Part shown: piece by piece, positions 19,815 through 44,872 of the stretch
How positions within the stretch are numbered: the stretch's first letter is position 1
Layout of the letters: every line of letters starts with the position of its first letter
Translations under genes and position numbers: made by a program
The notes under the pieces: generated by a model
Told to the model about the DNA's origin: nothing
The model's database searches: none
What the model saw: only the letters and a program-made list of their open reading frames with translations
NCBI RefSeq assembly: GCF_030407455.1
Contig: NZ_JASDDJ010000024.1
Location: 1 to 48,495, forward strand
Origin: Psychrobacter sp. 5A.1
Lineage (GTDB): Bacteria > Pseudomonadota > Gammaproteobacteria > Pseudomonadales > Moraxellaceae
Length of the DNA: 48,495 bases
Direction of reading: 5' to 3'

Positions 19815-19883
19815 AGATATTTATCCTTTTTATAGCTACTGAGAGAGCCTATTGCTGGTAACTCATTTATTAGTAATTTGTGC

Positions 19884-26882: not shown

Positions 26883-26918
26883 GGGTGTATCCTCATCTCA
26901 AAATAGCGACACGCCCTA
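26881..26918. repeat. 38-bp hairpin MITE derivative abutting the full-length copy
   Basis: TAGGGTGTATCCTCAT followed by a short loop and GCGACACGCCCTA: the two ends of the MITE with almost no interior. It shares its left TA with the full-length copy. Its right TA plus the neighbouring base forms the TAG stop codon of the minus-strand RraA-like gene. Confidence 0.65.
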
Positions 26919-27581
26919 GCTCTCAAACAACTTATCTAGCTGATTATTACGATACGCCTCAAAAAATATCTGAAACTTCACCTCATCTGATTTGTGCTTT
27001 TTTTGACAATCTGATAATAGCTGCTGCGCGACATCAACAGGCAATATAAACACACCATCATTATCCATAATGGCAATGCCGCCTGTACGGATAGGCGTGG
27101 TCTGCTCACCAAAGCGATAGGCAATATCGGATGCTAGCGTGCCTTGTATGTGATTGCTTTTAAAGGTGGTCACAGCACTGACACCTTGTGCAAATACAGG
27201 AAATCCCAATTGTTGAATTTGTACCGAGTCAGTTGCCTGTCCAATGACAATGACGGCGGATAGCTTCTCATAGATAGCCGCGCAAGTTCGCAGTGCTCCC
27301 CAACATGCTTTGATGCCTAATACTTGAGCATCAATACATAACACATCATTAGGCGCTGCTTGAATCAATGCTTGGTTGATTGCATCCGTATTATCCGAGG
27401 TTAGTTGCACCGTAAACACTCGGCCTACTATAGTATTTGAGCAAGGATTAAGTGGCTTAATATCTGGTAAATACCCCTCTCCCGTCAGATGACCAATGGT
27501 TGAGGTACCTATCTCTTTATAACTGTCTATAAGGTCGTGAATATCGATGTCATCCATTATGTTCTCATCATGGTATTTCAT
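26916..27581 (-). CDS. RraA-like / HMG-CHA aldolase-family protein
   Basis: A 221-residue protein of the RraA/'dimethylmenaquinone methyltransferase' fold, which includes 4-hydroxy-4-methyl-2-oxoglutarate aldolases and oxaloacetate decarboxylases. Recognisable parts are VGRVFTVQL, CWGALRTCAA, FPVFAQGV, and IMDNDGVFILP. The usual catalytic DGxxRD is IGQATD here: the metal-ligand Asp remains, the Arg is Thr and the Asp-Gly is Ile-Gly, so classic aldolase activity is doubtful. It starts 4 bases after the last NIS synthetase gene (an ATG at 27557 is an alternative), so it belongs to the siderophore transcript. Its role there is unknown. The TAG stop is at a MITE edge. Confidence 0.75.
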   Translation of the reverse strand: MKYHDENIMDDIDIHDLIDSYKEIGTSTIGHLTGEGYLPDIKPLNPCSNTIVGRVFTVQLTSDNTDAINQALIQAAPNDVLCIDAQVLGIKACWGALRTCAAIYEKLSAVIVIGQATDSVQIQQLGFPVFAQGVSAVTTFKSNHIQGTLASDIAYRFGEQTTPIRTGGIAIMDNDGVFILPVDVAQQLLSDCQKKHKSDEVKFQIFFEAYRNNQLDKLFES

Positions 27582-27585
27582 AATT

Positions 27586-29703
27586 TTAACCACTGTTCCT
27601 GATACGCTTGAACGGATTGTTCGTTTTACTTTCTCCCGCTGGCATACTGCCATGAGGATCAGCGCCACGGGCAATCACAGGCAATAGCAATGTTTTATGC
27701 GGATAGTGTGAACTGCTTAATAATTCGTCATGAAGTATCTGACGTTGATCGTCATCAAAATCGATAGTCACTAAGGATTCCTCGATACTAGTCATTGCCT
27801 CGTGCCACAGCGTATCTTCATTGATATGATAGTGCTCAACCAATGACTCGATAATCGCTCGAATATTGACTAATAACCCTAATGACTGTAGATAAAATAT
27901 CAGCGCTTGCGGCGTCTCTCGATATAAACGGTTTTTAAAATCTGGTGGGCTTAGATACTCAGGATCTGATATTTTGTGGCGTGCCAGCCATGGTAGATGG
28001 ATGCGTACGGAATCATGGTCACGTAGTAACAGACTCGTAAAACGATTGTCTTTTAATACGATAACAATATTTTGCCCATGCATCTCAGGCGCAAACCCTA
28101 GGCGTAGACAGCGCAGCATCGTTCCCAAAAACACATCACAAAGGTTTTTAAAACACGCTATGACAGCGAGTTTTTTATTCTGTGGCGAGCCTTCTTGAAA
28201 GCTGTCTTGAGCACTGTTTTGGCTACTATTCTGGGTAGTACTATCAATACCCTCCTGAACAATGCCGTCAAAAATGTGATGGCTAACACCTTGCTTATAG
28301 ACCAACATACCCAAGCTTGCCATCGGTAATAATCGAATCGTATCGTCACATAGATCTGCTGGTAATTGACGTAGCATCGCGCCTAGATGCGTGGGCTTTT
28401 CTTGATAAAATTGCGGATTAATAGCGCTTTTATCATGCAAATGAGACGGAGACATACAACCCCACCACAGGCGCTCATCCCATAACCGTAGCTGTGCTGA
28501 TAGTACAGGGTCTAACGTTCTTGCCTGCATCAATATGGCTTGGTTTTTTTCACCATTGATCAGCTTGAGGGCTGGCAAGTAACGCTTTGAGTTCAGTGCA
28601 TACACACCTATAGGCAGCTTAATGCTATTTGGCGTATCAGCATCAATTAACATACTGCGCATGGATGAGCTGGCATAAGTGATGAGCGCATCAAACTTGA
28701 GGGCGACAACTGTGCCATTGGCAAGATCGTCGGCATACATCTCATCAATTACATGAGTCATTTGCCAAGGGTGTACGGGCATCGCAATGTGCGTGTCTGC
28801 AATACCTTTGTCATCTAGCTCTCGCATCAACTTCTGCTGCTGCGTAGTATCCAAAAGATATTTCGCTGGGTTTTGCGTTGTTGTGTCTTGAACATGCTCT
28901 GCCACCATGACATGGCTTTTGGCAATGGCGACCCATACCAGCGTAATGGGCTGGTTAAACTCTGCCATATAGCGTTTATATTCTTGTGCAGTAAAGCCTA
29001 ATTTGCCTTTAGCCAATGGATGAAAAGGACGATCCATCAGTGAGGCCCACTGCTCCGCCGCAATCAAGGTTTGATGCCAATGCGTATGCTGACATACTGT
29101 AGTCGCGATATTTGCAGTTGCTGATTGTTTCTGAGCTATAAAAGAAGCCTCTAAGCTCTCTTTTAGCTTTAAGACACCAACATCAGATAATGCGGCACTA
29201 TCCATCATTGATAAGAAGATATCTAACAACTGCTGTGCTGAGCCTACTGGCTCTAGCAAAGCGCTGTTCACATGATGGCTATTATTAAGGATGCTATTAA
29301 GATTGCTGTTAAAACTGAGATTAGCGTTATGTATGACAGGGAGACAAGATTTAGACAATCGCCACGGTGACGCGTAAGCAGGCTCTACCAATAGTAACAA
29401 CTGTCTATCTTGGTCAAGTTGCATCACCATCAATGGGTTATCTTGGTCAAAGAAGTCTTGATACTGCTGTGGTAGCGACGCTAAAAATTGATGCTCGTCT
29501 TGAGCTTGAGTCGTCTGATGATTTGCCAAGTACTCGGTGGTAGTTGTCACTTGAATAAGTTGCTCATCCACCCACTGCTCTAATAGAAAGCACTCTACTA
29601 AATGGCTAATCAGCGACCATTGAACAGCCTCGACATCTAGCTCAGGGTTTGCATCAAGGTGGCTGTTTTGCGCATAAGTTTGCACAGGAAATAAGGTATG
29701 CAT
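27586..29703 (-). CDS. NIS siderophore synthetase (IucA/IucC family), third copy
   Basis: A 705-residue ATP-dependent synthetase that condenses a carboxylate with an amine or hydroxylamine. IucA/IucC landmarks are HPLAKGKLGF (ATP-binding HPxxKxRxGF), MPVHPWQM, YASSSMRSM (SSxRT-like, here SSMRS), and the C-terminal FhuF-like part with MHGQNIVIVLKD. The frame extends to 29823, but the ATG at 29703 (MHTLFPVQ) follows a GGGGGT site overlapping the stop of the preceding synthetase gene, 4 bases away. It is longer than typical family members (about 580-620). It has no counterpart in the two-synthetase rhizobactin 1021 set. Confidence 0.85.
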   Translation of the reverse strand: MHTLFPVQTYAQNSHLDANPELDVEAVQWSLISHLVECFLLEQWVDEQLIQVTTTTEYLANHQTTQAQDEHQFLASLPQQYQDFFDQDNPLMVMQLDQDRQLLLLVEPAYASPWRLSKSCLPVIHNANLSFNSNLNSILNNSHHVNSALLEPVGSAQQLLDIFLSMMDSAALSDVGVLKLKESLEASFIAQKQSATANIATTVCQHTHWHQTLIAAEQWASLMDRPFHPLAKGKLGFTAQEYKRYMAEFNQPITLVWVAIAKSHVMVAEHVQDTTTQNPAKYLLDTTQQQKLMRELDDKGIADTHIAMPVHPWQMTHVIDEMYADDLANGTVVALKFDALITYASSSMRSMLIDADTPNSIKLPIGVYALNSKRYLPALKLINGEKNQAILMQARTLDPVLSAQLRLWDERLWWGCMSPSHLHDKSAINPQFYQEKPTHLGAMLRQLPADLCDDTIRLLPMASLGMLVYKQGVSHHIFDGIVQEGIDSTTQNSSQNSAQDSFQEGSPQNKKLAVIACFKNLCDVFLGTMLRCLRLGFAPEMHGQNIVIVLKDNRFTSLLLRDHDSVRIHLPWLARHKISDPEYLSPPDFKNRLYRETPQALIFYLQSLGLLVNIRAIIESLVEHYHINEDTLWHEAMTSIEESLVTIDFDDDQRQILHDELLSSSHYPHKTLLLPVIARGADPHGSMPAGESKTNNPFKRIRNSG

Positions 29704-29707
29704 CGTT

Positions 29708-31657
29708 TTACCCCCGACTTTTAAACAATGGGTTATTGATGTATTTAATCGGGAATGCTTTATCTCCGAATAATCGGCGCTTAGCCAATGACTCAATGCG
29801 CGTTTGTTCAGCGAATACATCAAACAAGCCGAACCGTACTTGATGCTCTGGATGAGAGGTTTGATAGTCGATCACGCAGTCAGCAACCTGTTGCCAAAAC
29901 GCCACTTCAGCATAGTGATAATGCGTCTGCATAAAAATTGCGATGTCTGACAACGCCACAAAGAATAAGCAAGCAACCGTCATATCACGAATACCATCGG
30001 TATCTTCGGTCTCGATGAATGAGCCTCTATTTAAGGCAGCATGGGCAGGTGGCAAGCTATAAAAGTCTGGACGCAAGTGTTGTTGGGTCAAATGATTAGG
30101 TGAATAGCGAACCCCGTCATGCAAGTCTTTTAGTAATATTTTTATGGGATAGCCATCTTCATGTACCAAGACGATGTTTTGCGCATGGCATTCTAGTGCC
30201 ACACCATAACCAAATAAGATATGCAATAAAGGGGTGATAGTGATCTTAATTAACTGCGCAATCCATGTCTCTACGCCATATTTATCAAGCCAAGGTGCTA
30301 TTAAATGCGAGCCATCAGCATTGACATAGCTGACACCATTGAGCGGAAATGCGGTTTGACCTTTTGATAGATACTGACTGACGTTTTCTCGCCAAATCGC
30401 AGCTAGCCCGCCATACATATTTGGATGCTGGTAGCCGCGCGCGCGTAACGCCTCATGGTCGAGACTGACACCAACGGTCTCACCTAAAAACGCAATGGGT
30501 AATGCTTGGGCTGTCTTATCATCTGCAATCAGTTGATTCAACCAAGTGGTGACAACAGCCGCATTCATCACGGTATGCTTTGCCAGTATTCGTGTGCTTG
30601 AGGTATTAATCAGGTGCATACTTAGTTTTAGGTAGGCTTTATCATTAATAGTGTCATTGTTACCATTGTCATCGCTATTACCAAGCATCGTCAGTGAGCG
30701 AATAGACTGCTGAGCACGATATTGATGACCTGCACTACCTAAGTAGATAACTTCTTGCGTGGCAAGCAGTGGCTGTAATGCTTGAATTAAAGTATTTTGC
30801 CATTGCCAAGGATGCGCAGGTATCAGGCAATAATTATTAGCCGTCTCGTCTACTTCATGACTAGCTGTACCTTCGTCTTGCTTATTTGTGATTGTAAGTA
30901 CTTCTGTGAGTTTGGCATTGAGTGCATCAAATTCATCCGCACCCACATAATCTTTCACCCATTCGTTTATATCGATACCAGTAGTGGTATTGCTCACCAG
31001 TAGCTGTTTTTTGACCGCCAACCACACTACGTCGATGTTTTGATCAAACTCTGGGCCGTAGTCATAGTTATCTTGCAAATCAAAACCAATACGAGACTTA
31101 AAACACGGATGATAAGGATGCCCTGCCGTCAAATAGCCTTCGAGTTGCTCATAAGTGAGTTTATTAATAGCTACAGGCACATTAGAAGCCAGTATCTGAG
31201 ACTGTGTTTCGTTCACTAAGGTATGGCGCAGCTCTTTGATAAAGCTGTCTTTGAGTTCTGCACCCTCAATGTTGAGCAAGATATCACTGATTACATGCTC
31301 AAGAATGGCGTCTTCGGCAACACCGTTAACCACTCGCTGCACATTTAACTCATTCAAACGAATGATGTCAAAACTATAATGAATATAGCCTTGCGCGGTA
31401 TAACGGACATCATCACTTGCTTGTATGACAAAATTCAGCAGCGTCTCGTTGCCAGTACTTTCATGAGTGGTGTTCGCACTTTCAGATTCAAACTCAATGA
31501 TATTTTCATATAGTAATGCTTGTAGCAATTGCTTGATCACCCGTTGCTCAGCGCGTGCTATAATTTTAGAATTAACAGGTGCTTGCCACGGTTTAGTTGC
31601 ATAAGTGACATTTGCACTATTATTATTTTTGGTAGAGTTTGCTAGATGATTGGACAT
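29708..31657 (-). CDS. NIS siderophore synthetase (RhbF-like)
   Basis: A 649-residue IucA/IucC-family enzyme with HPCFKSRIGF (ATP loop), IPAHPWQWQ, AQQSIRSLTML, and a C-terminal ECHAQNIVLVHEDGYP block. By analogy with rhizobactin 1021 it would join the second N-acyl-N-hydroxydiaminopropane to the citryl monoamide. The frame is open to 31714, but the ATG at 31657 (MSNHLANS) has AGGAAG upstream, and this places the Fur-box-like site at 31721-31739 in the promoter. It is translationally coupled to the next synthetase gene. Which of the three synthetases does which step is inferred only from order. Confidence 0.85.
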   Translation of the reverse strand: MSNHLANSTKNNNSANVTYATKPWQAPVNSKIIARAEQRVIKQLLQALLYENIIEFESESANTTHESTGNETLLNFVIQASDDVRYTAQGYIHYSFDIIRLNELNVQRVVNGVAEDAILEHVISDILLNIEGAELKDSFIKELRHTLVNETQSQILASNVPVAINKLTYEQLEGYLTAGHPYHPCFKSRIGFDLQDNYDYGPEFDQNIDVVWLAVKKQLLVSNTTTGIDINEWVKDYVGADEFDALNAKLTEVLTITNKQDEGTASHEVDETANNYCLIPAHPWQWQNTLIQALQPLLATQEVIYLGSAGHQYRAQQSIRSLTMLGNSDDNGNNDTINDKAYLKLSMHLINTSSTRILAKHTVMNAAVVTTWLNQLIADDKTAQALPIAFLGETVGVSLDHEALRARGYQHPNMYGGLAAIWRENVSQYLSKGQTAFPLNGVSYVNADGSHLIAPWLDKYGVETWIAQLIKITITPLLHILFGYGVALECHAQNIVLVHEDGYPIKILLKDLHDGVRYSPNHLTQQHLRPDFYSLPPAHAALNRGSFIETEDTDGIRDMTVACLFFVALSDIAIFMQTHYHYAEVAFWQQVADCVIDYQTSHPEHQVRFGLFDVFAEQTRIESLAKRRLFGDKAFPIKYINNPLFKSRG

Positions 31658-31720
31658 AGGTATAAGCTTCCTGTCTGAAAATTGAATCAAATAAAAGTAT
31701 GAATTTAGATGCATATAAAG

Positions 31721-31739
31721 CGAATGATAATTATTTACG
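31721..31739 (-). promoter_or_regulatory. Fur-box-like site before the NIS synthetase pair
   Basis: CGAATGATAATTATTTACG contains AATGATAAT and ATTATT, arranged as in the Fur consensus. It lies 64 bases upstream of the ATG at 31657 and 39 bases beyond the stop of the MFS gene (31778). This suggests that the two synthetases and the RraA-like gene have their own iron-controlled promoter. Confidence 0.6.
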
Positions 31740-31777
31740 TTAATAAGTTAAAGTAAACCCCGATACGGGGTATTTGT

Positions 31778-33277
31778 TTATGAGGATCGTGGTAATTTGC
31801 ATGCTGAAGGAATTGTAAATAATAAAATCACCGCGATGACCACCAGTATTTCTTGGATCGCGCTTGCCATACCTTGACTACTACCTGATGCTAATAACTG
31901 CGCACTTCGACTGTCTATATAAAGGGTGGACAGCGTGATAAATATGGTAGAGATGATGCGGCGACTGATGTTATTAAGGGCGGCGCCTTCAGTGACTGAT
32001 TCTTTGGGTAAGCTACTAAACCCAACGGTAGTGGTTGGCAGGTAAGCCAAACCTACCCCAATACCTCGCATACTCATAATCAACATTAATAGCCAAAGCG
32101 TGGGCTGATACAAGCACCATGCCAGCATCAAAGTAGATAGCGCACTAATCGCAATTCCTACGATGCCAATCCCTCTGGCACCTTGCTTATCTACCATCTT
32201 GCCAGCGTAATGCGTGGTGATACTGGCCACGAGCGTCGCGACCATCAGGACAACACCTGTCCATAAAGCACTCTCGCCCATCACGTCTTGTATCAGCACG
32301 GGTAATAGTAAGAGACACAGCATCAAACCGACTGTTTGGCTAATGCTGATGATATTACTGTGCAAATAGGTTTTATTACGGAACAAGCGCACGTTTAATA
32401 ACGGATATTTCTGACGCCGCTCATATGCCCACCAAGCCATCGCGGACAGTAAAAATCCGACAGACAATAAACCCAACGTGGCTATCTTTAATAATCCGTC
32501 ACTGCTGAACAATCCACTAGTGAAGTCTATTTTCAGCGTGCTCAGCCAAACCATCATCGCAAGCAGCCAAGTGAGTAAGCTGATAAACCCGATGATATCG
32601 AAAGGACTTTTTTTATCATGTGAGCGCATATCAGGTATTAACCACCACACCATCGCCATGACCGCCGCACTGAGTGGCAAGGTAATGGCAAACAGTATCC
32701 ACCACGCAAACTGCTCAACCAAGTAAGCACCGACCAAAGGGCCAAACGCCAACGACATCATAATAACAATGCCCCATAGCGCCATTACTCTGCCGTGCTG
32801 CTGCTGCGGATAAATCTGATACAGCATACCAATAGACAGTGGAATGATCAGACCGCCACTCAGTCCTTGTATGGCCCTAGCAATGATGACAAAGCTCATG
32901 CTAGACGCTAGCATGCCAATGACTGAGCCCAGCATAAATCCGAAAATTGCCGCCAAATAAACATGCTTAAAAGGAAATTTTTTGTTTAAGTAGCCGCTTA
33001 GCATCAGCCCCACACTCATGGCCAAGACATAAGCATTTAACACCCAGCCGCCCATCACGATATCGACATCAAACACCGACATAAAGACAGGAATCGCTGG
33101 ATTGAGCGCGCTATTGCTAAAGCTGACGACCGTACCGCCGAGTAGTAATGTCAGTAATACCTGCTGTACCTGTTTGTCGGTCAAGCCATTACTACTACTT
33201 TGAGAGGCTTCGCTTATAGGCGACTCATTTGTAGATGCCTTATTTATAGGGGCTTTATTTATAGGGGCATTGCTCAT
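31778..33277 (-). CDS. MFS exporter (DHA2-type), probable siderophore efflux
   Basis: A 499-residue major-facilitator protein with about 14 hydrophobic segments. It has the family motifs NAYVLAMSVGLMLSGYL (about 81-97) and RAIQGLSGGLIIPL (about 133-146), as in EmrB/QacA-type proton antiporters. It overlaps the acyltransferase gene by one base (TAATG), so it is co-translated with siderophore biosynthesis genes. It most likely exports the finished siderophore. The N-terminus carries a perfect five-residue duplication (APINKAPINK). Confidence 0.85.
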   Translation of the reverse strand: MSNAPINKAPINKASTNESPISEASQSSSNGLTDKQVQQVLLTLLLGGTVVSFSNSALNPAIPVFMSVFDVDIVMGGWVLNAYVLAMSVGLMLSGYLNKKFPFKHVYLAAIFGFMLGSVIGMLASSMSFVIIARAIQGLSGGLIIPLSIGMLYQIYPQQQHGRVMALWGIVIMMSLAFGPLVGAYLVEQFAWWILFAITLPLSAAVMAMVWWLIPDMRSHDKKSPFDIIGFISLLTWLLAMMVWLSTLKIDFTSGLFSSDGLLKIATLGLLSVGFLLSAMAWWAYERRQKYPLLNVRLFRNKTYLHSNIISISQTVGLMLCLLLLPVLIQDVMGESALWTGVVLMVATLVASITTHYAGKMVDKQGARGIGIVGIAISALSTLMLAWCLYQPTLWLLMLIMSMRGIGVGLAYLPTTTVGFSSLPKESVTEGAALNNISRRIISTIFITLSTLYIDSRSAQLLASGSSQGMASAIQEILVVIAVILLFTIPSACKLPRSS

Positions 33278-33879
33278 TAAGCAGTGGCACCATAGAAATT
33301 CAGATACCCTCTAGATTCTAGAAACTCATCGCGATTGCAAAAATACAATGAGGCGGTTTTTTCTGGCATTTCAATCAGACGTTGTACGCGATAAGCGAAG
33401 CTATCAGCAATCCATTGGTACACCTCAACCTTACTATCCGGCTCGACTACGATTTTTTTGGCCTCAGTATGCTCAAATATAAACTTGCTGATCATCATGC
33501 CTGTTGGCTTGAGATAGCCTTTGCCAACCACCGCTGGATCGCCAAGCAAAATATGCCAGCCCATGTCCGTCTCTTTGGCTTTGTAATACTGAGACAACCG
33601 GTCACGAGCCGTTTCATAAATCTCTGTATAGCCAATCGGCTTATCATCACAAAGTATGAGGTAGAGACGCTGATGGTCATCGGCCAGCATTTTTTCAAAA
33701 TGGGTTTTTAGCTGCGGCATCGGGAGATGTAGCTGCCACTGATCAACCACATGCTCAGCATGCATCCACTTATACAGTAATGGCATATCATCTGGGTAGC
33801 TGACAGGTCGCAATGCAAACGTCTTTTGATAAGCTTCAATGCTAAACGTATCGGGTAGGTTTTGGGTGATAGTCGGCAT
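33277..33879 (-). CDS. Siderophore N-acyltransferase (RhbD/IucB-type GNAT)
   Basis: A 200-residue GNAT protein of the siderophore acetyltransferase group. YLILCDDKPIGYTEIYE and MGWHILLGDPAVVGKGYLKP (acyl-CoA loop) and the C-terminal half are typical of IucB/RhbD. It should acylate the hydroxylamine made by the monooxygenase on 1,3-diaminopropane, giving the hydroxamate. The acyl group (acetyl or longer) cannot be read from the sequence. The ATG has AGGAG. Confidence 0.85.
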   Translation of the reverse strand: MPTITQNLPDTFSIEAYQKTFALRPVSYPDDMPLLYKWMHAEHVVDQWQLHLPMPQLKTHFEKMLADDHQRLYLILCDDKPIGYTEIYETARDRLSQYYKAKETDMGWHILLGDPAVVGKGYLKPTGMMISKFIFEHTEAKKIVVEPDSKVEVYQWIADSFAYRVQRLIEMPEKTASLYFCNRDEFLESRGYLNFYGATA

Positions 33880-33948
33880 GACTTGCTCCTAGTTATTATT
33901 TTGCTATGTGGTTAATATGGTTTTGATGGAATAGGATGCTTATAAAAA

Positions 33949-35346
33949 CTACGCGCCAAAATTTTGAAATACTTTTAAGGCATCGGTGTCGTAAGTCTGC
34001 TCACCTGTTAACTGATTGACGATACACCCTGCTCGATAAGCCCCCAACCCCAAGTCTGGTGCGCCAACGCCATGGGTGTGCACCTCTTGGTTTTGTACAA
34101 AAATTTTGCCATCAGTCGCGATGTTTTTTTGATGCGTCAGCACATATTTCAGTGCATAGTCTCTATCAATGACTGGCTGATCAAATTCATCGTGCGCGAT
34201 GCTAGGTAGTAGCGTATTTAAGCACTCAGGCAGACCGTAACGATAGCCTGTACCAGCAATCACACAGTCATACTCAGCAGTGAAATCTTGATTCTGTTCA
34301 CGCTGTTTAACTACCAGTTTTATGGTGTCTGCCGGCTCTGGCGCTTCTAGCATTGTTGTCAGCGTTGCCTCAACCACTTCACAGTTAGACAGCAACGTCG
34401 AATACAAATCTTGATTGGTAATACTACGCTCATAGAGGCGATGATAGATATCACGTATGGTCTCAAAGCCCATGCCTTTATAAAGTAGATCTTGCTTGGC
34501 AGTGACTTGAGGCTTGGTTGCTGAGTCTAAATGATAAAAGTAATCTGTATACGCAGGGCTAAAATACTCCAAACCTAATGGGGAGTACTCCATGGGAAAA
34601 AATCCTGCCGAGCGAGTCATCCAATCTAGCTGAAACTTAGGGTCGTCATTAGTACTATCATCGCCATCAAACTGCTGATCAAACAGCGTTCGATATACCT
34701 CTGCTGAAGATTGCCCAGATCCCAACACTAACACTTTTGTCAGTTTGCCTTCAGTCTTGGTGCTATTCACATCAAGGCTACTAGCATTATTGAGGCTATC
34801 CAAGTCAAAATTGTCTGCAAAATGGGCAGTGTGCATACAGCGGTTAGGCGCTTGTTTGGCAATATCTTGCAGCGATGGTGGTAGCGTGGCCTGTGTTCCT
34901 GTTCCTATGACCAGATTTTTAGCATGATAGGTGTTTTGTGTACCTTGTTCAGAGACTGTCACTACAAACCCATCATTGCTATCGTCAAACGCCACGTCTA
35001 TCACTGCCGCATCAAAATTCAGACTATCCAGCTGCTCTGCTACCCATTGGCAATAATGATTGTACTCTTTACGATAAATTTTAAATTCTTCTAAAAAGTA
35101 AAACTTGAGCAATCGGTGCTGAGTATGCAAATAATTCAAAAAAGAATACGGACTGGTTGGGTCTATCAATGTCACCAAGTCTGCCATAAAAGGCACTTGT
35201 AGTGTGGTGTTTGGCAATATCATGCCTTTATGCCAATTAAACTCAGCTTTTTGCTCAAAAAACTTGGCGGTTACGTCGGTCTTTGTCAGTAATGCCGCCA
35301 AACTTAGATTAAACGGCCCTACGCCAATACCAATAATGTCTAACAC
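33949..35346 (-). CDS. FAD/NADPH-dependent siderophore amine N-hydroxylase (RhbE/IucD-type)
   Basis: A 465-residue flavin monooxygenase. It has the N-terminal FAD motif GIGVGPFNLSLAALL (about 6-20), the NADPH loop VLGSGQSSAEV (about 208-218), and the C-terminal GTGYRYGLPECL characteristic of lysine/ornithine N-hydroxylases. In a cluster with dat and ddc the substrate is most likely 1,3-diaminopropane rather than lysine. The start is GTG with AAGGGG upstream. A MITE separates it from the preceding synthetase gene by 275 bp, the largest gap in this set. Confidence 0.88.
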   Translation of the reverse strand: MLDIIGIGVGPFNLSLAALLTKTDVTAKFFEQKAEFNWHKGMILPNTTLQVPFMADLVTLIDPTSPYSFLNYLHTQHRLLKFYFLEEFKIYRKEYNHYCQWVAEQLDSLNFDAAVIDVAFDDSNDGFVVTVSEQGTQNTYHAKNLVIGTGTQATLPPSLQDIAKQAPNRCMHTAHFADNFDLDSLNNASSLDVNSTKTEGKLTKVLVLGSGQSSAEVYRTLFDQQFDGDDSTNDDPKFQLDWMTRSAGFFPMEYSPLGLEYFSPAYTDYFYHLDSATKPQVTAKQDLLYKGMGFETIRDIYHRLYERSITNQDLYSTLLSNCEVVEATLTTMLEAPEPADTIKLVVKQREQNQDFTAEYDCVIAGTGYRYGLPECLNTLLPSIAHDEFDQPVIDRDYALKYVLTHQKNIATDGKIFVQNQEVHTHGVGAPDLGLGAYRAGCIVNQLTGEQTYDTDALKVFQNFGA

Positions 35347-35388
35347 GGTCGCCCCTTAGTGATTTGGTAGTCACATTAATTCTGATGC

Positions 35389-35562
35389 TAGGGCGTGTCC
35401 TCATTTTAAAAATGGTGATAAAAATGAGATAAATCGCAGTCAAACAAGGAAAGTAGCGCAGATAATATCGAGATATTAGTCAGCTATTTGACACCGTTTG
35501 GCAAGATTTAGCCATTTTTGACCCATTTAGATAACTATCGTTTGAATTGAGGACACGCCCTA
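35389..35562 (+). repeat. Full-length MITE inside the siderophore gene series
   Basis: A TA-flanked 174-bp element. The left end is GGGCGTGTCCTCATTTT and the right end is AATTGAGGACACGCCC. A perfect internal inverted repeat, TAATATCGAGATATTA, lies near 35464-35479. It is nearly identical to the copy at 44978-45151. It lies between the first NIS synthetase and the monooxygenase genes. Confidence 0.9.
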
Positions 35563-35621
35563 ATTCTTGTTGAACCCTAACTTTTATCGTGTGCTTATCT
35601 TTGCCGTTCCAATATGACGTG

Positions 35622-37451
35622 CTACGTCATCATAGGGTTTGGGATATCGACATAAATAGACTGGGTTTCAACAGGTGCGGTCAGCTCATCGAGTGCATAG
35701 AGTCTGGTGAGTAGATTGCCCTTGAACGGCAATGTAGGGCTACGCAACAACAAGTCAAATAACGAACGATGTGGGTATTGTTGCTCTAACGCCATTAGAC
35801 ATTCTTTAAACGTCGTGATTAATGTCTCCTCACTCACAAGCTGAGTACGAGCAATAGCAGTGATAAGACCAAATATACTGTTGCCAACTAAATAATAGGC
35901 AAAGCGTGAGTCAGCAAAGTCTTCTGGAATGACACACTCTCCTTCGCTAATCAGCTCGGGATAAGCGTCAATGAGTGGCGTGGCGTACTCCGCAATATAG
36001 CCAAAGCCTTGATTGTCTCTGGCCCAAAATTTAGTAGGATAGCCGTCTTTTAGCTCAATCAGACTGTTTTGCTGATGTACCTCAAACCCAATACCATGCT
36101 GATAATACATATGAACCAGCGGTATAAAACCAACTTGCAAATAAGTATCAAACCATTGGATAGCCACCTGTTCTAGAGGTTCATCTGTCCGTTTATGGAT
36201 AGACTTAAACAATGTCTCTAAGCGATTGGTAAGACGAGTTGGATGGTCTTGGCTTAGGCTGGCAAGATTGGTGACTTGCGTCTCTTCTGTAAACGGGTTA
36301 TCACGTAGGATACAAATGGTCTCATCAATGATTTTTCCATCCACACGTAAGGCAATCCAAGCAGGATCATTCAATACCGCAATCGTAGGGTATTCGGTTT
36401 TGAGCTGAGTACCATAGTCGCTACGCCAGATTCGGCAGGCATGCATACCGCGTTTACATTCTTTGGGCAGGTTAATCCGCACCGAATTGGTAATCGCCAC
36501 AGACAACGACAGTTTAAACATCCAAGGCGCATCAAAGGCCGCTAGCGTGCGTACTGATGTAGTCGGATGCAGATACCAACCGAGCTCACCCAAGTCAAAC
36601 AATTGGCCTTGTTCTAGCAGTTTTTGATACCACGACTGCTGCTGCAAAAACCTTGCTTGCCAAGGGTGTAATGGCAACAGCTTATAGTCAGGATGCTCAT
36701 CGACAAGTTGCTGCTGATAGCCACTCATATCAGCTTTTAGTTTTGATTTGAGCGCTGTGGTAATGCTATCGCCATCTACGAATTCTTCTGTAATGCAGCT
36801 GGGGTGCACTAGCCAATAATGCAGCTGGGTTTTGCTATTGGTCTCGGGCGCATACTTCGCCCACTCAGCACCATAAAAACCAGCACGGCCTTTGGGTGTA
36901 GGATGCATGGCATGACCGTAAATAAGGTTTTGTTCAGTCTGAATAAAGTCTTGCTGATAGTCAATGATGTCATCAATCTCATCATTGCGATGCTCTAAAA
37001 TAATCTGTAGCCCCTCATAACTCTCAATCCAGCGCTTTAATACACCATTGGCATCTAGCGTCGCTTTCTCTTTATAACGATGCACGATGTCTTCAATAAT
37101 CAAAGACGCTAAACTCATAGCAGAGGATTTTATCCATCGGCTGTTTTGCAAAGGGTCGTCCAGTTGCGTGTCTAATTTTGAGTCTGATCGTATGCTGACC
37201 TGCTTATTTAATGTAAGCGGCGTGCCCGCCAAACGATGCTGACCCAATTGGCTCACGCTATCGACAGGTACGACCATTACCGTGTTCGAAGGCAATAGCA
37301 TTAGCACTAATAGAGGCTTGTTTTGTGAGGCCTGCTTCTGTATATCATCCTGCTGCTCTACGGCAATAATATCGCCGCGCCCAGTCTCAAAACAGTAAGC
37401 ATTGATTAGATTTTGTAGTGTAAGTCGATCAAGCGTTTTATGCTGCATCAT
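35622..37451 (-). CDS. NIS siderophore synthetase (RhbC-like)
   Basis: A 609-residue IucA/IucC-family enzyme. The ATP loop is MHPTPKGRAGF, followed by LLPLHPWQARFL, TTSVRTLAAF, VRINLPKECKRG, and the C-terminal block FEVHQQNSLIELKDGYP. By position after dat and ddc it corresponds to RhbC, which would form the first citrate amide. A TTG or ATG farther upstream is in frame (37466-37469), but the ATG at 37451 has GGAAGA at good spacing and starts one base after the ddc stop, giving tight coupling. Confidence 0.87.
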   Translation of the reverse strand: MMQHKTLDRLTLQNLINAYCFETGRGDIIAVEQQDDIQKQASQNKPLLVLMLLPSNTVMVVPVDSVSQLGQHRLAGTPLTLNKQVSIRSDSKLDTQLDDPLQNSRWIKSSAMSLASLIIEDIVHRYKEKATLDANGVLKRWIESYEGLQIILEHRNDEIDDIIDYQQDFIQTEQNLIYGHAMHPTPKGRAGFYGAEWAKYAPETNSKTQLHYWLVHPSCITEEFVDGDSITTALKSKLKADMSGYQQQLVDEHPDYKLLPLHPWQARFLQQQSWYQKLLEQGQLFDLGELGWYLHPTTSVRTLAAFDAPWMFKLSLSVAITNSVRINLPKECKRGMHACRIWRSDYGTQLKTEYPTIAVLNDPAWIALRVDGKIIDETICILRDNPFTEETQVTNLASLSQDHPTRLTNRLETLFKSIHKRTDEPLEQVAIQWFDTYLQVGFIPLVHMYYQHGIGFEVHQQNSLIELKDGYPTKFWARDNQGFGYIAEYATPLIDAYPELISEGECVIPEDFADSRFAYYLVGNSIFGLITAIARTQLVSEETLITTFKECLMALEQQYPHRSLFDLLLRSPTLPFKGNLLTRLYALDELTAPVETQSIYVDIPNPMMT

Positions 37452-37452
37452 G

Positions 37453-38958
37453 TTATTTCTTCCCATCAACGTTCAGGTTGTCAGAATTGAGTCGGTTAAA
37501 ACCAGCAATAGCCATCTGCTCAATGATGTCTGCAATATCATTGATTTGGGTATTGGGATTTAGAATGGTGAATTTAAGGCAAAGGCGCTGCTCAAACTGG
37601 GTGGTGGCTACATTGGCAATGTTATTGACCAATAATTCTTGTGCAATGTGGCGATTGAGCTGTGCGAGTTGGTCATCAGATAGCGCGGTATCTTTAGGTG
37701 TAAAGTAAAACAAAACACTGCTGATAATAGGCTCATGTACCAGTACAAAATTTTCATTTGCATCAATTAGCTGTGCCGCTTGCTTGGCGGTATCCAGACA
37801 GCTATCAATCAAAGTTGCATAGTCATCCGTTCCCAGTAAGTCCAGCGCCATCCACAGTTTTAAGGCATCGAATCGGCGTGTGGTCTGCAAAGAGTACGTC
37901 ACCAAGTTTGGAATATTGTCTTGTTCGTCATCAGCAGAGTTTAGATATTCGCTATGATGGCGAATACTCTCAAAATTTTGATTGTCTCGTAAGAGAAAAG
38001 CACCACAGCTAATCGGCAAGAAGAAATGTTTGTGAAAGTCCAAGGTGATAGAGTCAGCTTGATTCAGACCCTCAATTAAGTGTCGATAGCGCTGTGATAG
38101 TAGCAATGCCCCGCCCCATGCCGCATCGACATGTAGCCATATCTGTTCATCACGGCAGATTTTACCAATAGACATTAGAGGATCAATAGCACCCAAGTCC
38201 GTTGTGCCAGCGGTTGCGATGATGGCCATCACATTGTCAGCACCCAGCTTATCTATCTGATGTTGTAAATCAGACATCAGCATGGCACCTGATGCATCGG
38301 TCGCTATTTTAATGACGGATTTTTGACCTAAACCTAATAGCGCCGCGTTTTTTTCGATAGAAAAGTGCGCTTGGTCTGAGCACAGGATTGCGCCAACAGA
38401 CTGACCCATCAGACCATCCTTTTGCACATCAACGCCCTTAGCTTTATAGAATTGATTGCGTGCTAGGAGTAGACCCATCAAATTACTTTGCGTACCGCCA
38501 CTGGTAAAGACACCACCAGCGTTATGGCCTATCTGTTCATCAAAGAGGGCACCAGAGATGTCATCAAACTGACAACGTTGACACAGCCAATGGATTAAGT
38601 CTTTTTCGATATAGGTCGCTGCTGGGCTTTGGTTCCACGAGTCCATACTTTGGTTCGTGGCCGCTATAATCATCTCAGCAATCTGACCGATGACCAGTGT
38701 GGGTGGATGTAAGTGGGCTAAGCAATTCGCATTGGCCGTCGACACACAACTGGGTAAAAACTTACTTTGAATATCAGCGAGTATCGTGTCGATGTCTCGG
38801 CCTTGCTCACGGATGCTAAAGGCATTGGTTGCTTGCACTTGTTGCGGTGTGCCGCCCAAATACACGTTATTATCGTCTAGCCACTGTTTGATAACAGCGC
38901 TGGTTTTTTGCATATGCGTGACATATTGTTCACTGGTTTGCTGGTTTAATAAATGCAA
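37453..38958 (-). CDS. ddc: L-2,4-diaminobutyrate decarboxylase
   Basis: A 501-residue group-II PLP decarboxylase. GGVFTSGGTQSNL (about 148-160), HVDAAWGG (276-283) and the PLP Lys310 in LDFHKHFFLP can be seen. It matches the RhbB/Acinetobacter Ddc type that converts L-2,4-diaminobutyrate to 1,3-diaminopropane. The apparent start is TTG (38958) preceded by GAGGA; the next in-frame ATG is residue 16. It sits 129 bp after dat and gives the diamine building block of the siderophore. Confidence 0.9.
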   Translation of the reverse strand: MHLLNQQTSEQYVTHMQKTSAVIKQWLDDNNVYLGGTPQQVQATNAFSIREQGRDIDTILADIQSKFLPSCVSTANANCLAHLHPPTLVIGQIAEMIIAATNQSMDSWNQSPAATYIEKDLIHWLCQRCQFDDISGALFDEQIGHNAGGVFTSGGTQSNLMGLLLARNQFYKAKGVDVQKDGLMGQSVGAILCSDQAHFSIEKNAALLGLGQKSVIKIATDASGAMLMSDLQHQIDKLGADNVMAIIATAGTTDLGAIDPLMSIGKICRDEQIWLHVDAAWGGALLLSQRYRHLIEGLNQADSITLDFHKHFFLPISCGAFLLRDNQNFESIRHHSEYLNSADDEQDNIPNLVTYSLQTTRRFDALKLWMALDLLGTDDYATLIDSCLDTAKQAAQLIDANENFVLVHEPIISSVLFYFTPKDTALSDDQLAQLNRHIAQELLVNNIANVATTQFEQRLCLKFTILNPNTQINDIADIIEQMAIAGFNRLNSDNLNVDGKK

Positions 38959-39087
38959 AATGTCCTCACCCGTCCTATTCTACGATTGTATAAATCGAAA
39001 ATAAGTGACTTATTATTAGAGTCGTTATTAGAGTTGTTATCAGAGTTTTTTTATAAATGTGTGAATCATGCTAAGGCGCTGGCAATA

Positions 39088-40437
39088 CTATTGATTGTCT
39101 TCTAGCGCCATATCGAGCCTTTGCAAGACTTGCTGCAGCTCATCTTTGGTTATATTAAGGGGCGGTAACAACCGCAGTACGGTGCCACCGCGACCGCCCT
39201 TTTCAATCACCAATCCATGTTTGAAACACGCTTGTTGGATTTTGGCAGCCACATCGCTGTCTGCTGGATAGCTACCGTCATTTTGCTTAGGTAGGCTGGG
39301 ATTGACAATCTCTATGCCAATCATGAGACCACGCCCTCTGACTTGGCCCATTTTTGGATAGCGCTGTTGGCGTATTTTTAGCTGCGACATGAACCATGCG
39401 CCTATTTCTAAAACATAATCAGCAACGTTATTGTCTTTTAAGTAATTGAGGGTGGCAAGGCCAGTCGCCATGGCTAATTGATTGCCTCTAAACGTACCAG
39501 AATGATTGCCCGCCTGCCATACATCGTATTGTTTTTTGATACCCAGTACCGCAAGTGGCAGACCACCACCGATTGCTTTTGACATCACAATCATGTCGGG
39601 ATCAATATCCGCATATTGATAAGCGAACCAACGTCCTGTGCGGCAAAACCCTGTTTGCACTTCATCAATAATCAGCATGATGCCTAGCTCTTTTGTCACT
39701 CGGCGCACATGCTTCAGCCATTCTATGGGCGCAGGGTTGACACCGCCTTCCCCTTGTATGACTTCCAAAATGACCGCGGCTGGTTTCACCACACCGCTCT
39801 CTACATCTTTTAAGAAGTTTTCAAAGTAGCGCATATGGGCGTGGATGCTTTGCTCAAAAGGCAAGCCAAACGCGCAGCGATACATATTGGGATAAGGCAA
39901 GAACTGTACCGAGCTCATCAGACCTTCGATACCTTGTTTAGGTGCCAAGTTCCCTGTCACAGCCAGCGCGCCATGCGTCATACCATGATAGCCACCGCTA
40001 AAGCTAACAACACCTGAACGACCAGTGACTTGTTTGGCGAGTTTAATAGCCGCTTCTACCGCATCAGCGCCTGTCGGCCCGCAAAACTGCAAGCAATACT
40101 CATCGCTATTGGTAGCGAGTAACTTATACATAAACTCGCTGAATTTGTCTTTTAACGGTGTGGTAATGTCCAATGTATGCATCGGTAGGTTGCTGTCTAA
40201 TAGCACTTTGATACTTTCTGTGACTACGGGATGATTGTGTCCAAGTGCCAGCGTGCCAGCGCCTGATAGACAGTCGATATACTCATTACCTTCCACATCG
40301 GTAATCCACGCCCCTTTGGCTGATTGAATCGCAAAAGGTAGCTTACGTGGATAACTGCGAACCTTCGATTCAAATTTTTCTTGACGATGTAAGTAGCATT
40401 CGTTATCAAGTGGTTCGTCTAAGAGGATCGTGTCCAT
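39088..40437 (-). CDS. dat: L-2,4-diaminobutyrate:2-oxoglutarate aminotransferase
   Basis: A 449-residue class-III aminotransferase. It has [16 protein letters not shown] (about 120-135), [13 protein letters not shown] (256-268) and PLP Lys287 in [13 protein letters not shown]. The form is typical of RhbA/Dat/EctB enzymes that make L-2,4-diaminobutyrate from aspartate semialdehyde with glutamate. It is the first gene of the main biosynthetic set, with the best Fur-box-like site of the window 100-120 bases upstream. The dat-ddc pair commits the pathway to 1,3-diaminopropane. Confidence 0.9.
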
Positions 40438-40746
40438 AGCTTCAGCCTTGTTATTGTCAGTCGTCTTGGGTAAACATTCAAAAGTAAATTTTGACGCTTA
40501 CTTCTTAAAATACTGTTTTCTTATATTGAATGATAATATAAATGATAATCATTATCTTTAATGCGGTGTAGTATCTACTACCTATGATTTGCTGTCAACC
40601 CAATTTATTGGTTTTTCGAGAGGTAAAAATAATAAAGAAAAGTGTTTTGGTGACCATCACAGACCGTCGACCGCTCAGTGACACACAGCCAATAAGCACA
40701 GACAGTTCTAAAACCATCTATGCTCGCTTGAATTATTTGCTAGTAG
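40438..40746. other. Intergenic region upstream of dat
   Basis: A 309-bp gap between the co-directional importer permease (ends 40747) and dat. It holds the dat promoter and the Fur-box-like site at 40538-40556. I see no MITE, terminator or RNA gene in it. Confidence 0.5.
40538..40556 (-). promoter_or_regulatory. Fur box before dat
   Basis: ATAAATGATAATCATTATC matches 17 of 19 positions of the Fur consensus GATAATGATAATCATTATC. An overlapping GATAATATAAATGATAAT on its left could hold a second dimer. It lies about 100 bases upstream of the dat ATG. Confidence 0.85.
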
Positions 40747-42924
40747 CTATCTAAAGGCTGAGGCTGGCACCTTACGAATGAGCCATAAAAAGTAGCCACC
40801 ACCAATAATGGCAGCAATCGTACCCGCCGGTAGCTCATAAGGGAAAATAACATAACGACCAATCCAATCTGCTATTACCATCACGCCTGCCCCTAAAAGT
40901 GCAGCTAATGGCAATTGTCGTTCAAGCTTGACGGCACCGAGTGAAGTAGCCAAATGTGGCACCATCAAACCAATAAAGCTCAACGGGCCAACGGCAAGTG
41001 TACTGGCCGTACTAAGCGCTGCCACTAATGCCAATAGCGACAAGGTAACTGGCGTGACTGCCACACCTAGATTACGCGCCACACCTGCACCTAACCCAAG
41101 AACTCGCAAAGGTTTAATCAGCAGTAAACTGAGTGCAAATAAGATAGATGCAATACCAATGAGATACCATACCGTACTGGGCTGGGCGCTATAAGTTGTC
41201 CCTGATAGCCAGCTGAGCATCGCCTCTAAACGCGGGTCTCCTGAGAGCTTGACCATATGCATCACCCCATCCATCATGGCGGCAATGCCTATGCCCACCA
41301 ATAATAAATAACCTGAGCTGACCCTGCGTGCTAGCCAAATAATCAATAGCAGCACAGCCATCGCACCTGACAATCCTGAGATTAATAGCGTCCCTGCTCC
41401 AGCGGATAGCCCTAAACTTGGTAATAATAAAAACCCTAAAATGACCCCAAGTGCGGCACCCGAACTGACACCCAATACCTCAGGACTGGCCATGGGGTTA
41501 CGCGTTAAAGTTTGCAGTAGCACGCCTGCAACTGCCAACATCAAGCCTGTGGCCGCAGCGCTCAAACTACGAGGTAAGCGGTACTGCTGAGTGAGCGCCC
41601 AGTCTGTACTGAGCCCCCAACCATTAATGTCTTGTACAAAAAGACAAGCCAGCAGGATAAGGGCGAGCACCCCAACACCCCATCGCCAAAATGCAATGGA
41701 TGTATGCTTACCCGCAAGCATAGGCGTCACTGTCTCTATCCGCTCGCGACGCTGACGCAACATCAACCAAATAATCAACGGTGCACCCAAGATACCTGTC
41801 ATGGCACCAGCTGGAATTTGCATATCAAGTATTGGCTCAAGCAATAATGCGACATTACTGGTCAACAATAACAGCAGCGCTCCCAACCCAAATGCTGCGG
41901 CCAAACGCTTACCAATAGAAGAAATGCCCAGTGCATTGACCAAACTTGCCGCACCAAGACCAATGAATCCAATCAAGCCAACTTCACTAATCACTAAAGC
42001 AGTCACAATTGCCACAATCAACACGACAAGTGCGCGAATACCATTAATAGGAACGCCCAAACGTTTTGCTTGGGTGTCATCTAGACTCATGATGGTCAAT
42101 GGTTTTAATAAGGGCAGACATACTATCGCCATCAACGCTGCAGTAACGACTAACGCGATACTGGTATGCCAACTGTTTTGTGCCAAAAACCCAGCCGCCC
42201 ATGACAGCATGCCATTACTACGCTCAGCGAAAAACAACACCAATACATTGGCCACGGCTGCCAGCAAAATATTGACCACCAAACCAGCCAGTATCAAAAT
42301 CAATGGGTTAAACCGACTGGGTGCTGATAACGCAAACACTAGACTCATACTGATGATAGCCCCCACAAAGGCCACATAAAGTCCGCCATAAATGGCCAAG
42401 CTTGGCAAAAACAACGTGACGATGAGCATGGCCAACTGCGCACCAACGCCCACCCCTAGCGTCGTATCGGATGCTAAAGGGTTTTTTACCAATTGCTGTA
42501 GCAAAATACTGACCACGCCTAACAGCCCGCCAGCTAATAACGCCACCACACTGGTCGCCACGATATGCAGCTGTATCGCCATACTGGCAATGTCCAATTG
42601 CGAGCTTGGTATCAACAAATCACGGAATGGGCGCGTCCATTCTTGATCTATCAGTACCCAACTGCTCCATAATGATAGAGCCGTTAATCCGATGAGCATG
42701 ACCCACAGTCGCCAAGATATATTGGTAAATAGAGAAGTTTGAGGTTTGGGTTGATTCGGTGGCGGCGATGACTGTTTTAATGATGACGTTGATGACGTTG
42801 ATGACGTTGATGAGGGTTTTGAAACCGTTGCTGATTGAGAGGCTGATGTCATAGTATGAGCACTATCGGTGTGGTTATTGAGGTGATTATTGTGGTTGTT
42901 GTGAGTGTCTACATTGGCGCTCAT
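40747..42924 (-). CDS. FhuB-type fused iron-siderophore ABC permease
   Basis: A 725-residue protein with two tandem FecCD domains (about 70-390 and 405-720), as in FhuB (about 660 aa), so one chain can supply both halves of the importer membrane pore. Repeated landmarks are NPLASDTTLGVGVGAQLAML in half 1 and NPMASPEVLGVSSGAALGVI in half 2. A C-terminal GPLSFIGLMVPHLA is also present. The first 65 residues form an unusual Asn/His/Ser/Thr/Pro-rich cytoplasmic leader partly encoded by a 9-bp tandem repeat. The ATG overlaps the stop of the binding-protein gene (ATGA). Confidence 0.9.
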   Translation of the reverse strand: MSANVDTHNNHNNHLNNHTDSAHTMTSASQSATVSKPSSTSSTSSTSSLKQSSPPPNQPKPQTSLFTNISWRLWVMLIGLTALSLWSSWVLIDQEWTRPFRDLLIPSSQLDIASMAIQLHIVATSVVALLAGGLLGVVSILLQQLVKNPLASDTTLGVGVGAQLAMLIVTLFLPSLAIYGGLYVAFVGAIISMSLVFALSAPSRFNPLILILAGLVVNILLAAVANVLVLFFAERSNGMLSWAAGFLAQNSWHTSIALVVTAALMAIVCLPLLKPLTIMSLDDTQAKRLGVPINGIRALVVLIVAIVTALVISEVGLIGFIGLGAASLVNALGISSIGKRLAAAFGLGALLLLLTSNVALLLEPILDMQIPAGAMTGILGAPLIIWLMLRQRRERIETVTPMLAGKHTSIAFWRWGVGVLALILLACLFVQDINGWGLSTDWALTQQYRLPRSLSAAATGLMLAVAGVLLQTLTRNPMASPEVLGVSSGAALGVILGFLLLPSLGLSAGAGTLLISGLSGAMAVLLLIIWLARRVSSGYLLLVGIGIAAMMDGVMHMVKLSGDPRLEAMLSWLSGTTYSAQPSTVWYLIGIASILFALSLLLIKPLRVLGLGAGVARNLGVAVTPVTLSLLALVAALSTASTLAVGPLSFIGLMVPHLATSLGAVKLERQLPLAALLGAGVMVIADWIGRYVIFPYELPAGTIAAIIGGGYFLWLIRKVPASAFR
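42781..42813. repeat. 9-bp tandem repeat in the permease N-terminal coding region
   Basis: The unit TGATGACGT is repeated three times, plus a partial copy, inside the fused permease gene. It encodes a Ser-Ser-Thr repeat (SSTSSTSSTSS). A period of nine keeps the frame when copy number changes. Confidence 0.85.
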
Positions 42925-44749: not shown

Positions 44750-44872
44750 ATAAGCTCTCATTATTGATAAAGGTATATTTAATAAAAATCATTGCTTATC
44801 GATTATTGGTGATAGCTCAATTTTTTGATGATCAAACAGCAATAAAAACTGATTTTACTCGTAAACGATAAC

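Follow-up and report, generated by a model that had tools for sequence, protein, structure and literature searches.

Which siderophore would be made by a locus that carries three nonribosomal peptide synthetase-independent siderophore (NIS) synthetases? The question is raised by DNA from Psychrobacter sp. 5A.1 (genome 3.43 Mb), of which we analysed a stretch of 48,495 nucleotides on contig NZ_JASDDJ010000024.1, below called the window. The initial annotation described positions 26916-40437 as a rhizobactin/acinetoferrin-like locus with an additional synthetase. The siderophore locus is wider than this (24165-44761), and all its genes are on the minus strand. Importer genes, a receptor gene and a predicted Fur box lie just beyond the range first given, and the last gene of that range (26916-27557), which encodes a protein of the RraA fold, went unmentioned.

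We find it likely that this locus is a Psychrobacter member of the baumannoferrin type, with a predicted asymmetric siderophore that bears 2-oxoglutarate. A locus described by three synthetases and no named product thereby obtains a specific, testable predicted structure, and genes of the baumannoferrin type are extended to Psychrobacter and to a plasmid of Moraxella osloensis. The RraA-fold companion is the part of the locus most worth following.

Classes of the three synthetases

A PF04183 search of the whole genome finds exactly three synthetases, all inside this locus: synthetase 1 (BfnA/RhbC/IucA-like, 35622-37451, best solved relative IucA), synthetase 2 (BfnD/AcsC/SbnF-like, 29708-31657, best solved relative AsbB; SbnF model 428 bits, below the cut-off of 900) and synthetase 3 (BfnE/AcsA/SbnC-like, 27586-29703, best solved relative 7cbb). 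Synthetase 3 has 705 residues and starts with the ATG at 29703. It was first described as coupled directly to the preceding synthetase, and this holds, because 4 nucleotides separate the stop of synthetase 2 from its start.

The initial annotation proposed to place each synthetase on a phylogeny of types A, B and C. In a maximum-likelihood tree of 29 rows, 28 of them different, synthetases 1, 2 and 3 come out as types A, C and B. Synthetase 1 groups with the BfnA-type rows of Acinetobacter and the RhbC-type row of Sinorhizobium meliloti, with a support of 100/99. Synthetase 2 groups with the BfnD-type rows (100/100) and then with an AcsC-like row (95/97). The RhbF-type row is outermost in this clade (99/96), on a long branch that makes its place unsure. 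Synthetase 2 had been called RhbF-like, but its identity with the S. meliloti protein is 27% across 498 aligned positions, and it groups with BfnD and AcsC. Synthetase 3 groups with AcsA-, BfnE- and SbnC-like rows (100/100), within the AcsA/BfnE part (96/98).

IucA is a type A and IucC a type C synthetase (PMC12026967; all papers are cited here from excerpts). Further, SbnE is of type A and SbnF of type C, and SbnC uses 2-oxoglutarate (PMC3179956). The tree suggests that the locus is chimeric in origin, with a rhizobactin-type A synthetase joined to achromobactin-type B and C synthetases, and other loci of this kind seem to mix the two types as well.

Likeness to known clusters and the predicted product

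In the order of transcription the locus encodes FhuC, a FhuD-like protein, FhuB, Dat, Ddc, synthetase 1, an N-hydroxylase, an acyltransferase, a major facilitator superfamily (MFS) transporter, synthetases 2 and 3, the RraA-like protein and a TonB-dependent receptor. The genes first listed (dat, ddc, N-hydroxylase, acyltransferase and three IucA/IucC proteins) are all intact open reading frames with Pfam or NCBIfam matches. The transaminase gene dat (diaminobutyrate-2-oxoglutarate transaminase, 39088-40437) matches TIGR00709 with 657 bits, over the cut-off of 401.6. It is followed by ddc (37453-38958; PF00282, and NF052646 with 367 bits, below the cut-off of 900), a diaminobutyrate decarboxylase gene for the predicted supply of 1,3-diaminopropane. 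The amine N-hydroxylase (33949-35346; PF13434) is BfnB/RhbE-like and of the lysine/ornithine monooxygenase family, and the hydroxylamine acyltransferase (33277-33879; PF13523) is BfnL/RhbD-like. The BfnC-like MFS transporter of the DHA2 type (31778-33277) reaches 223 bits with TIGR00711, just below the cut-off of 230, and the BfnH/RhtA-like receptor (24165-26540) reaches 300 bits with the RhtA model NF052649, below the cut-off of 1100. The nearest named relatives are Psychrobacter proteins. Across ten intact Psychrobacter loci the ratio of nonsynonymous to synonymous change (pN/pS) is 0.01-0.40 for the genes compared; in pairs that are further apart the synonymous sites are almost saturated.

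The order of bfnA-L has been published for a cluster with three synthetases, in which bfnG belongs to the RraA family (PMC10483418). The Psychrobacter locus matches the order A-B-C-D-E-G-H, without bfnF between E and G: type A synthetase, hydroxylase, MFS transporter, type C synthetase, type B synthetase, RraA and TonB receptor. Like the bfn cluster it has one synthetase each of types A, C and B, a hydroxylase and an acyltransferase of the same family for a hydroxamate arm, and a supply by dat and ddc. Unlike in Acinetobacter, the acyltransferase gene sits between those of the hydroxylase and the MFS transporter, and dat-ddc and FhuCDB are inside the locus. In Acinetobacter dat and ddc are adjacent to each other but away from the bfn-type cluster (3 of 3 genomes searched for both). 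The first proposal, a rhizobactin/acinetoferrin locus plus an extra gene, is thus not supported; the locus is syntenic with a cluster that itself has three synthetases.

In the Acinetobacter group, 16 of 17 regions have synthetase A, hydroxylase, MFS transporter, synthetase C, synthetase B and RraA in this order and, close to them, the receptor and the acyltransferase; for L049 an overlap filter dropped the row of the MFS transporter, whose reading frame is listed all the same. The seventeenth region (L050) is an achromobactin-like variant. The named Acinetobacter loci are syntenic too, except L086, L095, L097 and L099. Achromobactin-like clusters are seen in L050/L149, L097 (Acinetobacter sp. 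NIPH 2100) and L099 (A. courvalinii), and A. courvalinii has a baumannoferrin-type locus (L080) on the same contig as L099.

The identity to the Acinetobacter regions is 41-45% for synthetase 1, 42-46% for the hydroxylase, 47-54% for the acyltransferase, 33-36% for the MFS transporter, 41-46% for synthetase 2, 35-41% for synthetase 3, 33-43% for RraA and 38-40% for the receptor; Dat and Ddc are 60-62% and 42% identical to their Acinetobacter counterparts. In the rhb region of S. meliloti pSymA the values are 51% for Dat, 38% for Ddc, 31% for the type A synthetase, 33% for the acyltransferase, 42% for the hydroxylase, 27% for the type C synthetase and 28% for the receptor. Six of these seven common proteins (Dat, Ddc, both synthetases, acyltransferase and receptor) are nearer to Acinetobacter. 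The rhb names are presumed here from homology, because the pSymA stretch was unannotated. In the 45 kb of it that were read there is no RraA match and no type B synthetase of its own, and synthetase 3 merely cross-matches the two other synthetases. In contrast to our locus, both this region and the acinetoferrin gene set, which we take to be of the same composition, have two synthetases, A and C, without a type B.

Two other types of cluster share parts of the locus. Achromobactin-like (acs/cbr) loci have synthetases like AcsC and AcsA, and their RraA belongs to the subfamily seen here. However, those read differ by an AcsD-like type A synthetase, an ornithine/diaminopimelate decarboxylase and mostly an HpcH aldolase (its gene is present in L084, L101, L149 and L155-L158), with no match for hydroxylase or acyltransferase. 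Among the ten core proteins of the Psychrobacter locus, Pfam and NCBIfam give neither an AcsB-type HpcH aldolase nor an AcsE-type decarboxylase. Staphyloferrin B (sbn) loci share SbnC- and SbnF-type synthetases but use the diaminopropionate genes SbnA and SbnB, both present in the Acinetobacter locus L145 and without a match among the ten core proteins here.

The same cluster is found, at 43-67% identity, on the M. osloensis plasmid pMOSL1 (AP017382.1, L153), whose record has the hydroxylase gene split in two; the 41.8 kb that we retrieved contain no match to dat or ddc. Genes for a transposase, an integrase and an invertase are close to this cluster of biosynthesis and uptake genes. In the literature on Psychrobacter, as far as the excerpts go, the likeness to baumannoferrin was found once, as an antiSMASH call of an NI-siderophore in isolate AT9 with 27% similarity to baumannoferrin (PMC12032627), and nothing closer was found.

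Baumannoferrin consists of citrate, diaminopropane, diaminobutyrate, decenoate and 2-oxoglutarate (PMC10483418), and bfnL is predicted to place the acyl group on hydroxy-diaminopropane (PMC7595644). Given the bfn gene set and order and the three NIS classes, the Psychrobacter product is probably an asymmetric citrate siderophore, to which synthetase 3 is predicted to attach 2-oxoglutarate. In the route that we propose, Dat would form diaminobutyrate and release 2-oxoglutarate, and Ddc would form 1,3-diaminopropane, which the N-hydroxylase and the acyltransferase would turn into an acylated hydroxamate arm. The acyl group would probably be of medium chain length, as in baumannoferrin. This arm would be coupled to citrate by synthetase 1, the other carboxyl of citrate would receive diaminobutyrate through synthetase 2, and synthetase 3 would add 2-oxoglutarate to the free amine. 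The ferric siderophore would be re-imported by the receptor and FhuCDB, and the RraA-like protein may act on the 2-oxoglutarate-derived unit, either in assembly or in iron release. The initial annotation had considered an asymmetric product in the manner of baumannoferrin, and this is the best reading, because the class of synthetase 3, the 2-oxoglutarate-using type B, is missing from the rhizobactin region.

The alternatives fare less well. Synthetase 3 could use another keto or dicarboxylic acid and give a structurally new siderophore, as its length (705 residues against 636-645) and its 35-41% identity to the Acinetobacter proteins might suggest; with gene order and companion RraA gene the same as in bfn, we regard this as unlikely. 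The final structure had been thought possibly new, but because the locus is syntenic with bfn, which has three synthetases, a new structure is not strongly suggested by the gene set, beyond possible changes such as in the acyl chain. Even less probable is a symmetric citrate bis-hydroxamate like acinetoferrin or rhizobactin, with the third synthetase dispensable: dat, ddc, hydroxylase, acyltransferase and type A synthetase do match the rhb set, but synthetase 2 is AcsC/BfnD-like rather than RhbF-like, and synthetase 3 groups with the SbnC/AcsA-type synthetases and is under purifying selection in the ten intact relatives (pN/pS 0.15-0.38).

Several points weigh against an assignment to baumannoferrin. 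The product is predicted from the genes, and the acyl chain is not readable from them. The genes bfnF, I, J and K are without counterpart in the Psychrobacter locus; the A. baumannii order is taken from a table in PMC10483418, not from the genome; and the hydroxylase is scarcely nearer to Acinetobacter (42-46%) than to rhb (42%). Five branches of the tree, all of sbn-like or rhb rows, are long and their positions were flagged as unsure by the program. Finally, synthetase 3 scores 312 bits with the NCBIfam SbnC model, below its cut-off of 700, and is therefore not named by it; the type B activity is inferred from the clade.

A possible dedicated supply of 2-oxoglutarate at 16833-21275 was rejected, as no match to it occurs in the flanking DNA fetched for 21 of the 23 named Psychrobacter loci (all but L066 and L072). 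It consists of a 2-aminoadipate transaminase and the 2-oxoadipate dioxygenase/decarboxylase HglS, both over the NCBIfam cut-offs, beside an FAD oxidase. This set would be lysine-catabolic and would end in 2-oxoglutarate.

The RraA-like gene

The gene at 26916-27557 begins 28 nucleotides past synthetase 3, and its product can confidently be placed in the fold of the RraA/HMG-CHA (4-hydroxy-4-methyl-2-oxoglutarate/4-carboxy-4-hydroxy-2-oxoadipate) aldolase family. It departs from what we take to be the catalytic motif of these aldolases, D-X20-R-D, with A-X20-T-D in the alignment. An alignment of 22 sequences was used to scan named genomes and gave 66 RraA loci, of which 63 members could be aligned and compared with 19 other RraA-family proteins from 321 genomes of the class. 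Of the 23 genomes with an RraA match in that set, the window genome was excluded and 19 with a locus were used; three without a locus, as well as a second match in G511, were not. The aldolase arginine (HMG/CHA aldolase 3noj) is present in 19/19 controls but replaced by threonine in 62/63 subfamily members. A histidine (H23) is invariant in the subfamily (63/63) and absent from the controls (0/19), which have Asp, Glu or Asn there. C85 and W86 (63/63 each) and Arg90 (62/63) are likewise found in 0/19 controls; this contrast is partly by construction, because the 66 loci were retrieved with two patterns, one of which contains C85-W86-G87-R90; H23 and T109 are outside it. In the ten intact Psychrobacter loci the gene has a pN/pS of 0.15-0.33. 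It looks like a new, distinct subfamily, below called BfnG type.

The 66 loci are from Psychrobacter, Acinetobacter, Lonsdalea, Dickeya, halomonads, Hahella, Saccharospirillum, Beggiatoa, Duganella, Pseudoduganella, Herminiimonas, Methyloversatilis and one contig labelled Streptomyces. The latter (L074, BMPS01000020.1) bears the title Streptomyces cinereus JCM 3040, but its genes are those of a contig from the Moraxellaceae genome G042; contamination or a wrong label is probable. In 58 of the 66 loci the fetched flank includes a type B synthetase that looks intact. Three others are deletion remnants in Psychrobacter without an intact type B synthetase (L075, L076, L096), three have none in the flank (L109, and L100 and L104, whose contig or flank may end too soon), and two are broken or ambiguous (L095, L086).

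The co-occurrence with the type B synthetase is strong in two families. Among 299 Moraxellaceae genomes, 43 have a strong type B synthetase (best piece at least 590 bits), and the same 43 have a full-length RraA (at least 34% identity over at least 185 residues). Full-length RraA of the subfamily is in none of the 256 others; seven of these, all Psychrobacter, have C-terminal RraA remnants, and three Acinetobacter genomes have distant matches (24-25%). Nine Acinetobacter genomes have a weaker SbnC-like gene instead (236-250 bits), and in none of the nine is there an RraA of the subfamily, while two have a distant RraA match elsewhere. In the halomonad family (151 genomes) the type B synthetase is found in 31, with RraA (>200 bits) within 5 kb in all 31, and RraA occurs in 2 of the 120 without it (G628, G705). 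The Fisher values (3e-30 and 5e-53) take no account of common ancestry and should not be read as probabilities of independent events. Class-wide the co-occurrence is too sparse to follow, with the type B synthetase in the window genome alone among 321.

Four of the nine Acinetobacter loci with the SbnC-like gene were read (L145-L148) and look staphyloferrin-B-like, with SbnA-, SbnB-, SbnC- and SbnG-like genes and a protein of 1175 residues whose C-terminal half matches the SbnF model. SbnA and SbnB are over their cut-offs in L145; L146 and L147 have proteins 98-100% identical to these, and in L148 the reading frames agree in length and start.

From the nearly perfect co-occurrence with a single clade of synthetases we predict a step, so far missing, in the making or the unloading of 2-oxoglutarate siderophores, among them baumannoferrin of A. 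baumannii. The co-occurrence also draws attention to the RraA-like protein in published clusters, namely bfnG and likely Psyr_2595 of Pseudomonas syringae. MenG is an old name for RraA proteins, and for this reason we infer that Psyr_2595 is an RraA-like protein of this subfamily. Annotated as "menaquinone biosynthesis", it is the last gene of the achromobactin cluster and ends the predicted cbrD operon (PMC3329529). For RraA together with achromobactin or a siderophore we found only PMC10483418 in print. On bfnG, only this paper and PMC10826366, where it appears in expression listings as a biosynthesis gene, were found relevant, and the excerpts of PMC3207962 and PMC13388484 hold nothing on the RraA-like gene.

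What does this protein do? Our proposal, which we hold just short of an even chance, is that the gene founds an unrecognised "BfnG type" subfamily dedicated to NIS siderophores made with AcsA/BfnE-type, 2-oxoglutarate-using synthetases. It would have kept the aldolase fold, exchanged the arginine for threonine and gained an invariant His, a Cys-Trp pair and a relocated Arg, and it would act on the iron ligand derived from 2-oxoglutarate; in the boldest form of the proposal it would be a new kind of enzyme that processes ferric siderophores as a partner of FhuF.

The side of the pathway on which it would act can be approached from the gene neighbourhood. Upstream of RraA the nearest gene with a label shares its strand in all 66 loci: 23 have a FhuF-like reductase there, 13 have FhuB or FhuC and 30 have a synthetase or a synthetase remnant. 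Synthetase C is counted as the neighbour wherever the match to RraA extended into synthetase B, and in L112 the neighbour is 1.2 kb away. Of the FhuF-like proteins next to RraA, those tested score below the NCBIfam cut-off, except that of L035, which has no match at all. In 18 of the 31 halomonad genomes RraA and the synthetase are on opposite strands, and in the three of these that were read (L154-L156) RraA ends the importer run. The two halomonads that have RraA but no type B synthetase agree with this: G628 has an intact RraA beside importer and receptor genes and no IucA/IucC gene was found, and in G705 it stands behind FhuF-, FhuC- and FhuB-like genes, with two synthetase genes, none of type B, about 72 kb away. 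Further, in an acsS mutant Psyr_2595, if rightly identified, falls 2.7-fold, nearer to cbrA and cbrB (3.3-4.6-fold) than to the acs and yhcA genes (15-41-fold; PMC3329529). The 36 importer or reductase neighbours, the halomonad cases and this response all favour a place on the return path, where the protein would process the 2-oxoglutarate-derived ligand of the imported siderophore and so allow iron release. Against this stand the 30 loci with a synthetase or remnant upstream, and a fusion of RraA to synthetase 3 in one reading frame of 907 residues in Psychrobacter sp. I-STPA6b (P0237). We hold a role in iron release to be possible, but somewhat less than probable.

The same fusion, as well as the 28-nucleotide spacing in the window, favours a biosynthetic partner of synthetase 3, which would supply, hold or cyclise the 2-oxoglutarate unit. 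So do deletions in Psychrobacter. In L075, L076, L096 and L151 a very similar deletion joins synthetase B near residue 237 to RraA near residue 104-116, and the MFS, FhuC, FhuB and receptor genes are retained. A search of ten Psychrobacter entries with RraA remnants found no PF04183 gene (L075 and G220 are apparently one genome); importer genes were read in the four loci. RraA is thus lost along with the synthetases while importer and receptor remain, which argues that uptake there can do without RraA and that RraA is tied to synthesis; the halomonads G628 and G705 point the opposite way. The importer-side neighbourhood also disfavours a partner in synthesis, as does L086, which keeps FhuF, RraA, acyltransferase and receptor with no bfn-type synthetase seen in the flank. 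We hold a biosynthetic role to be possible too, and slightly less likely than one in iron release.

As for L086 (Acinetobacter lactucae) itself, the only synthetases in the flank of its FhuF-, RraA-, acyltransferase- and receptor-like genes are on the other strand, at 29-34% identity, and are perhaps an sbn-like set. The four Psychrobacter deletion loci appear to be those of siderophore cheaters, with importer, receptor and DHA2-type transporter under purifying selection. Between these lineages pN/pS is 0.14-0.17 for the MFS gene and 0.28-0.55 for the short RraA remnant. Since the MFS transporter is kept under purifying selection in loci without synthetases, it may not serve only as an exporter.

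RraA-fold class II aldolases act on oxaloacetate, and the ten core proteins include no HpcH aldolase; nevertheless a citrate source that replaces the HpcH/HpaI-type SbnG/AcsB enzyme is highly improbable, with the catalytic arginine replaced, and such a substitution was rejected since RraA and HpcH aldolase co-occur in Dickeya, Lonsdalea, halomonad, Duganella and achromobactin-like Acinetobacter loci. A link to diaminobutyrate was also dropped: a Dat gene is in or near the RraA cluster in Dickeya, Lonsdalea, Hahella, Duganella, Pseudoduganella, Herminiimonas and Methyloversatilis (nearness partly by coordinates), but no such gene lies close to the loci of halomonads and Saccharospirillum.

Import genes and the window edge

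The predicted siderophore import genes stand at the start of the locus. The FhuC-like ATP-binding cassette ATPase (43985-44761) and the FhuD-like periplasmic binding protein (42921-43934) score 271 and 95 bits with their NCBIfam models, both below the cut-offs, and the FhuB double permease (40747-42924) scores 647 bits, over the cut-off of 554. A predicted Fur box lies upstream of dat (40538-40556) with 3 mismatches to a 19-bp consensus; one such site was found before dat, compared with 0.01 expected from shuffled sequences. Near the edge of the window, at 45355-48486, there is a large repeat-rich open reading frame with no NCBIfam match at E 1e-20, which reads like an adhesin with C-terminal calcium-binding repeats.

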